DNA of 49,240 bases from Chloroflexota bacterium. GTDB taxonomy: Bacteria; Chloroflexota; Anaerolineae; Promineifilales; Promineifilaceae. A program made the translations under genes and the position numbers. The notes under the pieces were generated by a model. The model did no database searches, had not been told where the DNA came from, and worked only from the letters and a program-made list of their open reading frames with translations. The stretch is from NCBI GenBank assembly GCA_018004935.1, contig JAGNBF010000054.1, positions 1-49,240 on the forward strand. Direction: 5' to 3'. Below, piece after piece: positions 7,413 to 49,240 of this stretch. Numbering within the stretch: the stretch's first letter is position 1; every line of letters starts with the position of its first letter.

Positions 7413-7869
7413 TGCCTAGCCCCCCTAATGGTGTGGCGATAGATTGAATCGCTGTGCCCAACATCTGGGGCGCTAATCCCCCCACACTGTTCATCAACCG
7501 CTCTAACCTTTGGGGATCGGCCGTCTGGCCCTGTTTGACCTGATCCGCCTGTTTTGTGGCCTCTTTTTCAATTTTGTTTAAGGTATCTAATAAATCCTCT
7601 TTGTCATCTTCATCCAGGTTGGGTAATTTAGCTACTTCTGCCGCCATCTGTTTTTTCCAATTCGCTAACTGCTGGCCAAAATCCGCCGGTACCGAAATTG
7701 TTGACCCACCGGTAGCCACAATGGCCCCTTCGGCGGCGTTAATCGTCGTTATCATATCCCCCCCGGCAATATGACCGATGTTTACATTGGTATTCTGTCC
7801 CCCAGAAACAGTAAAGTTTCCAAAATTAACTCCCCCGCTGGTTTTGCCAGACTCTTTTTCGTGCGACAT
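7366..7869 (-). CDS. Hypothetical Gly/Asn-rich protein, 167 residues
   Basis: Not assigned to a family. The first ~60 residues are rich in Gly, Asn and beta-formers (GGVNFGNFTVSGGQ, NTNVNIGHIAGGD), a short beta-repeat style also seen at the front of some bacterial signalling or effector-associated proteins. Residues ~70-125 form a charged, probably helical segment (LANWKKQMAAEV, DDKEDLLDTLNKIEKEA), and the tail is Gly/Ala/Gln-rich. No signal peptide or membrane helix. The start at 7869 is supported by AAAGGAGCGC upstream. It precedes and overlaps the GT51 gene and may be co-transcribed with it. It is one of only four genes here with no GCGGCCGC octamer, a possible sign of different ancestry. 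Confidence 0.7.
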   Translation of the reverse strand: MSHEKESGKTSGGVNFGNFTVSGGQNTNVNIGHIAGGDMITTINAAEGAIVATGGSTISVPADFGQQLANWKKQMAAEVAKLPNLDEDDKEDLLDTLNKIEKEATKQADQVKQGQTADPQRLERLMNSVGGLAPQMLGTAIQSIATPLGGLGIAAQQSGGLAQFVKK

Positions 7870-7904
7870 TATGCGCTCCTTTGTAAAAAAGTGTAACTAT
7901 ATAG

Positions 7905-8813
7905 CCCCTCACCCTAACCCTCTCCCCCAGGAGAGGGGACGAACTCCCCTCACCTTAATTCTCTCCCCCAGGAGAGGGGACGAACTCCCCTCACCCTAAC
8001 CCTCTTCCCCCAGGAGAGGGGACGAACTCCCCTCACCTTAATTCTCTCCCCCAGGAGAGGGGACGAACTCCCCTCACCCTAACTCTCTCCCCCAGGAGAG
8101 GGGACGAACTCCCCTCACCCTAACCCTCTTCCCCCAGGAGAGGGGGCGAACTCCCCTCACCCTGACCCTCTCCCCCAGGAAAGGGGACGAACTCCCCTCA
8201 CCTTAATTCTCTCCCCCAGGAGAGGGGGCGAACTCCCCTCACCCTGACCCTCTCCCCAGGAGAGGGGACGAACTCCCCTCACCCTGACCCTCTCTCCCAG
8301 GAGAGGGGGCGAACTCCCCTCACCCTGACCCTCTCCCCCAGGAAAGGGGACGAACTCCCCTCACCCTAACCCTCTTCCCCCAGGAGAGGGGACGAACTCC
8401 CCTCTCCCTAACCCTCTTCCCCCAGGAGAGGGGACGAACTCCCCTCACCCTGACCCTCTCTCCCAGGAGAGGGGGCGAACTCCCCTCACCCTGACCCTCT
8501 TCCCCCAGGAGAGGGGGCGAACTCCCCTCACCCTAACCCTCTTCCCCCAGGAGAGGGGACGAACTCCCCTCACCCTGACCCTCTCCCCCAGGAAAGGGGA
8601 CGAACTCCCCTCACCTTAATTCTCTCCCCCAGGAGAGGGGGCGAACTCCCCTCACCCTAACCCTCTTCCCCCAGGAGAGGGGACGAACTCCCCTCACCCT
8701 AACCCTCTTCCCCCAGGAGAGGGGACGAACTCCCCTCACCCTAACCCTCTCCCCCAGGAGAGGGGACGAACTCCCCTCACCTTAATTCTCTCCCCCAGGA
8801 GAGGGGGCGAACT
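7905..8813. repeat. 41-bp tandem array, 22 units
   Basis: Twenty-two head-to-tail units of 40-42 bp fill 909 bp. Each reads CCCCTCACC + a variable core + CTCTCCCCCAGGAGAGGGG + (A/G)CGAACT. Three core variants alternate irregularly: CCTTAATTCTCT, CCCTAACCCTCT(T) and CCCTGACCCTCT; some units have AGGAAAGG instead of AGGAGAGG. Each unit holds a short inverted repeat (CTCTCC/GGAGAG). On the minus strand most units read GGGGGAGAGGGTTAGGGTGAGGGG-like, a G-quadruplex-compatible word. The unit is not a multiple of three, so long ORFs crossing it are artefacts. The flanks (GTGTAACTATATAG and GCGGTTTCATCTT) match those of the simple hairpin at 38174-38223. Confidence 0.97.
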
Positions 8814-9199
8814 CCCCTCTCCCGTTTGGGAGAGGGGCTGGGGGTGAGGGTCAGCGGTTTCATCTTGAAGTAAACCGTCTAGGCAAGATTCTAGCATTGA
8901 CCTCTGGTGTGGTAAAGCACCCTTTCTTGTTTGGGTGTGTGTTACTTTTGTGGGCACGAAGTGGGCACGGTCGGGAGAGCGACCACAGCTATACTGGTAA
9001 CGGGGAACTACTAAGGCTCTCGAGGGCTGAGCTTGTCGAAGCCTCGTGTTACCTTTGCTGTGGCTGGTGTCCTCACCGAGCCATACCGAGCACGGTCAGG
9101 AGACCGGCTCGAGCAACCCCGTAAGTCCTCAATCAGGTTCTTTGGGGTTTCGTGGGGTACGGGCAACCCTTGTGATTGCCTTTTGGCAGGCACAGGGGA
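8814..9199. repeat. Hairpin end of the array and mixed REP-like repeats
   Basis: CCCCTCTCCC-GTTT-GGGAGAGGGG (8814-8837) closes the tandem array and runs into CTGGGGGTGAGGG, the right arm of the parent hairpin. Further on lie a decayed CGGTC..GACC repeat (~8966), GAGCTTGTCGAA (9029-9040) and the palindrome CGGTCAGGAGACCG (9093-9106). The stretch from ~9137 (GGTACGGGCAACCCTTGTG) resembles text at 18330-18360 and 28535-28600. No gene is supported here. Confidence 0.7.
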
Positions 9200-11989: not shown

Positions 11990-12259
11990 TATACTTACCA
12001 CGGTCATAAAGTGACATTTTGTGGGCAGTAATAGCTTGGGTAGGTTAGGCTGAAGACCCATCCCCCAACGATCCCAGAGAGAAGGGAAGAAACCTACCGG
12101 CGCGGTTTGGGGGCGGACGCCCCCAAACCGCGCCAGAAATAGTTCCCCGCCCCTGGGGGCGGGGTTAGGGGTGGGGGTGGCCTCGGATAAACCTGACGCG
12201 GCGATAAAGCGACACGGCGACACGGCAGGAAAATGTCACATTATGCCCTTGGCAGTATA
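11990..12259 (+). mobile_element. MITE-like element, complete copy A (~270 bp)
   Basis: Ends are imperfect ~30-bp terminal inverted repeats: left TATACTTACCACGG..CATAAAGTGACATTTT (to 12020), right AAAATGTCACATTATGCCC..GGCAGTATA (from 12230). The interior has the GGCGCGGTTTGGGGG hairpin (about 12100-12136) and the G-quadruplex-like GGGGG-C-GGGG-TTA-GGGG-T-GGGGG (12155-12177). There is no room for a transposase, so any movement would be in trans. It ends 36 bp before the EamA start codon and may supply upstream regulatory sequence. Confidence 0.8.
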
Positions 12260-14218: not shown

Positions 14219-14363
14219 GGGTGAGCCTCTGGGAATGTGTTGGAACCGAGAAAGGGTTAGTGGTGAATAAAGGGGGAATGGTAAATGCCAGAAAATGGTC
14301 AAGGGAAGGGAAGCGTTCAGTGCCTCTGGAGAAACCAGTTATTTTTAGACGCTCACTTAGGAT

Positions 14364-14444
14364 TTGAGTTTAGAGTTCAGAGCGAGAGCTAGAGGGTTTT
14401 CCAGAGTAATTCCCTCTAGCTCTCTCCTCTAGCTCTAAACTCAA
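14364..14444 (-). mobile_element. 81-bp palindromic element, copy A
   Basis: Ends are TTGAGTTTAGAG and CTCTAAACTCAA. The reverse complement matches 48384-48464 with the same length (81 bp) and only about three differences. It sits in the panE-panC gap. The interior is itself imperfectly palindromic (GCTAGAGG / CCCTCTAGC). No coding capacity. Confidence 0.85.
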
Positions 14445-14562
14445 GTCAGGAATGTGAACTAAATAACTTGTTCGCTGGGAGTGGCACGGTCAGGAGACCG
14501 GCCACAGTAAATGTTCAAATTATTTAATCGTCAATCCTTAATGATTTGCTGTGCCTGAGCAA

Positions 14563-33458: not shown

Positions 33459-33730
33459 TATACTTACCATGGTTATAAAGTGACATTTTGTTGGCGGCAA
33501 CAGATGGGGTAGGTTTGGGCTGAAGACCCATCCCCCGTCCCCTTCCCAGAGGGAAGGGGAGAAACCCACCGGCGCGGTTGGGGGCAGACGCCCCCAACCG
33601 CGCCGAAAAAAGTTCCCCGCCCCTGGGGATGGGGTTAGGGGTGGGGGTGGTCTCGGATGTTCCCAACATGGGGATAAAGCGGCACGGCGACACGGCAGGA
33701 AAATGTCAGATTATGCCCTTTGGCAGTATA
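33459..33730 (+). mobile_element. MITE-like element, complete copy B (~272 bp)
   Basis: Same structure as 11990-12259. Left end TATACTTACCATGG..ATAAAGTGACATTTT, right end AAAATGTCAGATTATGCCC..GGCAGTATA. The internal hairpin GGCGCGGTTGGGGGC / GCCCCCAACCGCGCC and a G-run block (33625-33647) are present. Compensating changes between the copies keep the hairpin, although one G run is interrupted here (GGGGATGGGG). Confidence 0.8.
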
Positions 33731-38353: not shown

Positions 38354-38489
38354 GTGAGCGTTCAGTCCAAAGGCGATTTTGTGCCATTTTGAATGACATC
38401 AACAGATTTTGAAAGGAACGGATTAAAGGCGACCTTTGGAAAAACCGTTTGTTTTCTAATCCGTTGATGTCATCCGACTGAATGCTTAC
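38354..38489. mobile_element. 136-bp element, uninterrupted copy
   Basis: Ends GTGAGCGTTCAGT and ACTGAATGCTTAC. The interior (AAAGGCGATTTTGTGCCATTT, TGACATCAACAGATTTTGAAAGG) matches 48279-48502, which is interrupted by the 81-bp palindromic element. It shares its terminal repeat with the 156-bp family. Confidence 0.8.
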
Positions 38490-48224: not shown

Positions 48225-48278
48225 CGTTGGTACAGGACAACAATATCTCCAGCCTACGCCAAGGGTAATCGTTTGGCC

Positions 48279-48502
48279 GTAACCGTTCAACCCAAAGACG
48301 ATTTTGTGTCATTTTGAATGACATCCACAGATTTTGAAAGGAACAGATTAAAGGCGACCTCTGGAAATCCGTTTGTTTCTTACTTGAGTTTAGAGCTAGA
48401 GGATAGAGCAAGAGGGAATTATTCTGGAAAACCCTCTAGCTCTCGCTCTGAACTCTAAACTCAAATTCTTAACCCGTTGATGCAATCCGACTGAACGCTT
48501 AT
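48279..48502. mobile_element. 136-bp element interrupted by 81-bp palindromic element
   Basis: Outer ends GTAACCGTTCAA and ACTGAACGCTTAT, and interior GACGATTTTGTGTCATTTTG, match the uninterrupted copy at 38354-38489. Total length 224 bp equals ~137 + 81 + 6. The right outer end is near 48502. Confidence 0.8.
48384..48464 (+). mobile_element. 81-bp palindromic element, copy B (nested)
   Basis: TTGAGTTTAGAG...CTCTAAACTCAA, 81 bp, inserted in the 136-bp element. TTCTTA occurs directly on both sides (48377-48382 and 48466-48471), as a 6-bp target duplication would. The copy at 14364-14444 is in the opposite orientation. Confidence 0.82.
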
Positions 48503-48626
48503 GTTCAGCCTACCGAAAGTTTGTACCACTGATCAACATCTACACCGAAACCTTCAGAAGGTGCATTTTCTCAAGGAACTGAATGCTTACGGTCAAGGTA
48601 GTGATTTGACATACTTCCATAATATC

Positions 48627-48915: not shown

Positions 48916-49240
48916 CGTTCAGGCCAAAGTTTGAGGGGGGTTTAGTCTGAAAACCCATCCCCCGTCCCCTTTGCAGGGGGAGGGAGGAAACCCACAGCGC
49001 GGTTTGGCGGGAGACGCCCGCCAAACCGCGCCAGAAGAGTCCCGCGCCCCTGGGGGGCGGGGTTAGGGGTGGGGTTTTCTACGTTGAGGCCAAAGTTTGA
49101 GGGGGGTTTAGTCTGAAAACCCATCCCCCGTCCCCTTTGCAGGGGGAGGGAGGAAACCCACAGCGCGGTTTGGCGGGCAGACGCCCGCCAAACCGCGCCA
49201 GAAAAGTCCCCTGCCCTGGGGGGCGGGGTTAGGGGTGGGG
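48916..49240 (+). repeat. Tandem 166-bp repeat of the MITE-like unit, window-truncated
   Basis: CGTTCAGGCCAAAGTTTGAG (48916 on) and CGTTGAGGCCAAAGTTTGAG (49082 on) start two near-identical units 166 bp apart. Each has the GGCGCGGTTTGGCGG hairpin and a G-run block (49052-49074; 49218-49240). The same unit with a 168-bp period opens the window at 1-230. The window ends inside the second copy, so the array length is unknown. Confidence 0.85.

Follow-up and report, generated by a model that had tools for sequence, protein, structure and literature searches.

The window analysed here is a 49,240-nucleotide stretch of a Chloroflexota genome (GenBank assembly GCA_018004935.1, contig JAGNBF010000054.1, forward strand) and contains two families of small mobile repeats, one of which is found inside the other (Table 1). 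A first-pass annotation had described a 136-bp repeat at 48279-48502 that is interrupted at TTCTTA by an 81-bp palindrome, with TTCTTA duplicated on either side; its coordinates and sequences were correct, as was its reading of TTCTTA as a 6-bp target duplication. The insert itself is longer than was supposed. One base on each side of the palindrome, usually C...G and here C...A, belongs to the mobile unit, which is therefore 83 bp and not 81 bp (C-[81]-A), and the 224 bp add up as 135+83+6 rather than as 137+81+6, removal of the insert and one TTCTTA leaving 135 bp.

The 83-bp element has the ends CTTGAGTTTAGAG / CTCTAAACTCAAG and inverted arms of 33-36 nt, and is without a transposase gene. 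The copy at 14364-14444, previously noted as near-identical and inverse, is 96% identical to the palindrome at 48384-48464 and does lie in the inverse orientation; its 6-bp duplication carries one mismatch. By its size (within 50-500 bp), its terminal inverted repeats, its duplications and the ends that it shares with IS elements, the 83-bp element is a MITE of a known kind. The window also holds a long array at 7842-8837 with a unit of ~41 bp (CCCCTCACC...CCCAGGAGAGGGG) and a second palindromic repeat family (GCGCGGTTTGGGGG...CCCCCAAACCGCGC) with five copies, at 109-208, 12076-12175, 33546-33645, 48974-49073 and 49141-49240.

Table 1. Features of the two MITE families in the window
Feature	Position	Strand	Remarks
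83-bp MITE	48383-48465	+	81-bp palindrome 48384-48464 plus one base each side
Target duplication of 83-bp MITE, left	48377-48382		TTCTTA
Target duplication of 83-bp MITE, right	48466-48471		TTCTTA
Second copy of 83-bp MITE	14363-14445	-	palindrome 14364-14444; outside any 136-bp element
Target duplication of second copy	14357-14362		TTAGGA; 1 mismatch to partner copy
Target duplication of second copy, other side	14446-14451		TCAGGA
Composite, 224 bp	48279-48502	+	136-bp-family host MITE interrupted by 83-bp element
Outer 8-bp duplication of composite, left	48271-48278		GTTTGGCC; 2 mismatches to right copy
Outer 8-bp duplication of composite, right	48503-48510		GTTCAGCC
Uninterrupted 136-bp MITE	38354-38489	+	flanking 8-mers ATTGTGGG/GTTGTGGG, 1 mismatch

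The 136-bp host repeat and the composite

The host repeat is a mobile element itself, with ends GTAAGCGTTCAG / CTGAACGGTTAC and 8-bp duplications, and 40 places are listed for it in the source genome. Its flanking 8-mers agreed with at most one mismatch in 23 of 46 end pairs (a set in which some pairings at a single locus overlap), compared with 0.7 (maximum 4) when shuffled. The uninterrupted copy at 38354-38489, which had been proposed as the empty site, reads TTTTCTAATCCG at the insertion site and is not the best one; among the loci read, the intact site CCGTTT[A/G]TTTCTTAATCCGTTG was found in six unfilled rows (L038, L051 twice, L053, L078 and L079) versus six filled.

Six host copies are filled by the 81-bp element at the identical internal TTCTTA and have differing outer flanks. 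The outer repeats of these composites are exact in L006 (8 bp) and L063 (9 bp); a single mismatch separates them in L004 and in L030, and two in L005 and in the window's own copy (L001). For four further copies (L013, L069, L127 and L299), the adjoining host consists of its right side alone or of the host minus its loop. These different outer flanks, together with the 8-bp duplications of its own, mark the 136-bp repeat as a second MITE and indicate that the composite spread as a unit. Since the same internal site is filled in six copies with different outer flanks, the filled copy in the window was probably brought in as a composite rather than formed on the spot, and the six are best accounted for by a single insertion after which the composite itself moved. 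The filled and empty repeats had been offered as direct evidence that a very small element transposes. The element is indeed mobile and very small, with a 6-bp target duplication and terminal inverted repeats, although this site is probably not one of in-place insertion. Separately, in the 136-bp MITE copy at L074 (C143:26964-27820) the interruption is another insert, ~117 bp long and bordered by AATCCGTTG at either end.

Copies and target duplications in the genome

Across the 8-Mb source genome we counted 245 occurrences of the end motif TKGAGTTTAGAG against a single one of the reversed control, and we estimate ~120 copies of the 83-bp element there. These counts, along with hairpin z-scores of -5.7 and -8.5 for the two window copies (folding versus shuffles), exclude a chance origin of the repeats. 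We read 75 of the ~120 copies with both ends and flanks. They come from the 40 best BLAST places, from places in contigs C2-C97 where the end pattern occurs as a pair, and from places whose ends are unusual; beyond C97, the sample draws on the first and third of these sources alone. To be kept, a copy needed two ends with no more than one mismatch, a length of 50-140 bp and at least 30 bp of flank.

Inspection of these flanks for 6-bp direct repeats, as the first-pass annotation had suggested, bore out the duplication. At the fixed boundary C-[81]-G, exact direct repeats of 5-7 bp were present in 51 of the 75 copies (6 bp, n = 40; 7 bp, n = 9; 5 bp, n = 2), whereas in 1,000 trials with right flanks shuffled among copies the number of exact duplications averaged 2.5 and never exceeded 8. 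The target preference was TNNNNA: among the 34 sites with distinct left flanks and a 6-bp repeat, T came first in 30 and A last in 28. No exact duplication of at least 5 bp was seen in the other 24 copies, some of which are one mismatch off by eye (e.g., TCATCA/TTATCA in L024). Longer non-autonomous forms with identical ends were also observed, one of 215 bp (L113, C24:21557-21771; 6-bp duplication AGGTAA) and one of 194 bp (L124, C150; 6-bp duplication AGATGA).

A search of 52 genomes of the family with the 81-bp element gave four relatives besides the source genome (E 1e-5); those that were read had mostly a GAGCTAGAGG-type core without the MITE ends. Hairpins of the GAGCTAGAGG type without TTGAGTTTAGAG ends are found in sister genera (L133, L135, L136 and L138-L141, from G010, G017 and G018), and the interior of the MITE may have its origin among them.

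NF041680 elements with matching ends

A transposase with the same ends, which the earlier annotation had recommended looking for, was found in elements of the NF041680 group. Searched for across 396 genomes of the class, NF041680 was detected in 34 (E 1e-30), and complete elements with the exact end motif TTGAGTTTAGAG...CTCTAAACTCAA are present in G394 and G211. The two complete elements with the identical motif are L337 (862-2422), at which no target duplication was found, and L338 (1375-2871), which stops at the contig end. These two and L333, which have the same or near ends, contain DDE_5 and DDE_Tnp_1, and their whole-profile NF041680 scores (329 bits for L337, 324 for L338 and 401 for L333) lie below the curated cut-off of 440 bits. 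The IS4 superfamily is characterized by the spacing Y-2-R-3-E-6-K, which is recognisable in L337 (YLWRFAIEHMFRFLK).

Paired ends of the TTGAGTTTAGAG type were found in 22 of the 30 NF041680 loci scanned, of which nine have duplications of 6-8 bp and one of 4 bp, the rest having none or lying at a contig end; a Nostoc plasmid carries an NF041680 element with CTGGAGTTTAGACT ends, flanked by a 6-bp duplication. The 83-bp element is like the NF041680 elements (NCBIfam; L337, L338, L352 and others) in its end motif, TTGAGTTTAGAG or close variants, and in its duplications; those elements, however, encode a transposase in ~1.4-1.7 kb, while the MITE codes for nothing. A full NF041680 element in G012 (L273) was set aside for its TTGGACTTTTGAC-type ends. 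L265, L267 and L269 bear the 13-mer, yet no transposase was recognised alongside, and the exact 14-mer matches in viral_contigs (at least 120) were judged to be chance and were not used.

A search for a complete NF041680 gene in the source genome returned no matches, so the partner element was pieced together from contig ends; PF01609 likewise had none in this genome. Longer repeats with MITE-type ends run into nine contig ends, six of them with end A (TTGAGTTTAGAGTTCAGTTGGG) and three with end B (TTGAGTTTAGAGCCGCAGTGCG). Their location fits that of collapsed multicopy repeats, and we regard the long element as multicopy in the source genome. Each of the B ends has a partner among the A ends with which it shares a 5-6 bp duplication (C84 with C129, C167 with one C96 end and C80 with the other; chance 0.00095, with MITE flanks as background), and three A ends remain unpaired. 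Contig C84 extends 258 bp into the long element and encodes a 45-residue C-terminus matching NF041680 at 410-438 of 439 (E 0.0035); the end-B tail is 54% identical to L337. The peptide coded at end A of the source genome is too short to scan, and the N-terminus adjoining the homologous end in another genome, G024, matches NF041680 at 2-26 of 439 (E 2.2e-5). The source genome yields end fragments only, with no DDE domain visible in them, and a DNA search with end B across the 52 family genomes had matches in the source genome alone.

The likely mobiliser, judged from these sequence likenesses, is a multicopy IS of the NF041680 transposase group, of the DDE type and IS701/IS4-like, which has the same ends and whose body is missing from the assembly. 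Some other transposase that happens to use similar ends might have moved the MITE instead; the source genome has no intact NF041680 gene, and the long element and the MITE share only their outer 13-17 bp. We consider this unlikely, since the multicopy long element matches the MITE in ends, flank type and duplication length and codes for an NF041680 tail, and complete NF041680 elements elsewhere bear the identical ends.

Spread of the element and its nesting

What preserves the palindrome could be a role of its own, for instance as a terminator or RNA hairpin, with mobility as old history, and the strong hairpins of both window copies would suit such a role. However, recent movement is suggested by the intact duplications and by listed copies that retain 91-98% identity to the window copy, and the copies lie in unrelated backgrounds; a retained function is therefore very improbable, and the MITE looks recently active.

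Grouped by sharing of both flanks, the 75 copies fall into 67 separate backgrounds. Shared flanks on both sides explain eight copies, in clusters of 6, 2 and 3, with the window's own copy in the cluster of 6, and one flank is common to 33 further pairs. Such sharing would be expected if the copies had spread by larger segmental duplication or recombination, the short direct repeats being coincidental. The number of backgrounds and the 51 exact duplications, against at most 8 after shuffling, refute this for most copies; it holds for the composite only and is highly improbable for the family. The first-pass annotation had named missing duplications and always-shared longer flanks as signs of such spread, and the 67 backgrounds run counter to them. 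The independent proof of transposition is the other copies in unrelated flanks.

HUH enzymes are not known to make 6-bp target duplications. It is scarcely credible that the element belongs to the REP/REPIN-type palindromes and owes its movement to a RAYT (HUH tyrosine) transposase: although it is short, palindromic and of high copy number, as are the REP/GTAG palindromes with RAYTs, including Chloroflexi GTAG repeats, reported in the available part of PMC3733652, the 75 copies read have CTTGAG/CTGGAG ends without a GTAG or CGTC tag, the 6-bp duplications are fixed, and identical ends flank a DDE transposase.

The reading that we prefer, and hold to be very probably correct, is that the palindrome is the body of a MITE likely mobilised in trans by an NF041680 IS, with one copy of the MITE then carried in a composite of a second family. 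The NF041680 transposase would bind the ends common to the IS and the MITE and excise the MITE, which would be joined to a 6-bp staggered cut at TNNNNA, with repair producing the 6-bp direct repeats. One copy would have inserted into TTCTTA within a 136-bp MITE from another family, one that makes 8-bp duplications; the transposase of that family would then have moved the composite, 48279-48502 being one such composite. The ends and their occurrence on an IS, the duplications, the copy number, the independent sites and the differing outer flanks of the composite are observed, whereas we infer both the movement in trans and the cutting chemistry.

Bacterial MITEs, as the available part of PMC10969869 describes them, are geneless elements of 50-500 bp with terminal inverted repeats that are mobilised in trans by a related IS. 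The 83-bp element is like them in size, inverted repeats and absence of a gene, and presumably in its trans mobilisation; unlike those described there, its interior consists of a single palindrome that has nothing in common with the IS apart from the shared outer bases, and it is nested in a second MITE and moved as a passenger. Copies of 113-138 bp in the source genome (L069, L299, L305, L116 and L131) have a GAGCGAGAGGA-type palindrome unit tandemly repeated. In the part of PMC4596501 available, the Porphyromonas gingivalis MITE BrickBuilt has an internal tandem repeat of varying number, as do the 93-138 bp variants here; its sequence is unrelated, and its duplications are few and unequal in length. 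The NF041680 proteins are like the IS701 family in that they score to NF049999, NF033540 and DDE_5, below the IS701 cut-offs. The IS701 entry in a Thermus table, within the part of PMC6352166 available, gives a 4-bp duplication, unlike the 6-7 bp seen here, where the MITE has 6 bp and just one of the 22 paired-end NF041680 loci has 4 bp.

On balance, we favour the view that the 83-bp element spreads via two unrelated systems, the NF041680 IS with 6-bp duplications and, when it travels as a passenger in the second MITE, a system with 8-bp duplications. In this view the NF041680 elements, whose ends are of the CTTGAGTTTAGA / TTGGACTTTGGAC type and whose duplications are mostly of 6-7 bp, would make up a separate IS group distinct from IS701. 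In a literature search judged by titles and the beginnings of abstracts, we recognised no study on such a MITE in Chloroflexota, and NF041680 was not found. With inner and outer duplications of unequal length, a single locus records two transposition systems; nested small elements are separable by duplication length, and a filled repeat paired with an empty one does not on its own demonstrate that the insertion happened there. Concrete ends and a duplication length can now be assigned to a putative transposase group that had only a number, and the group is tied to an amplified MITE of the Chloroflexota.
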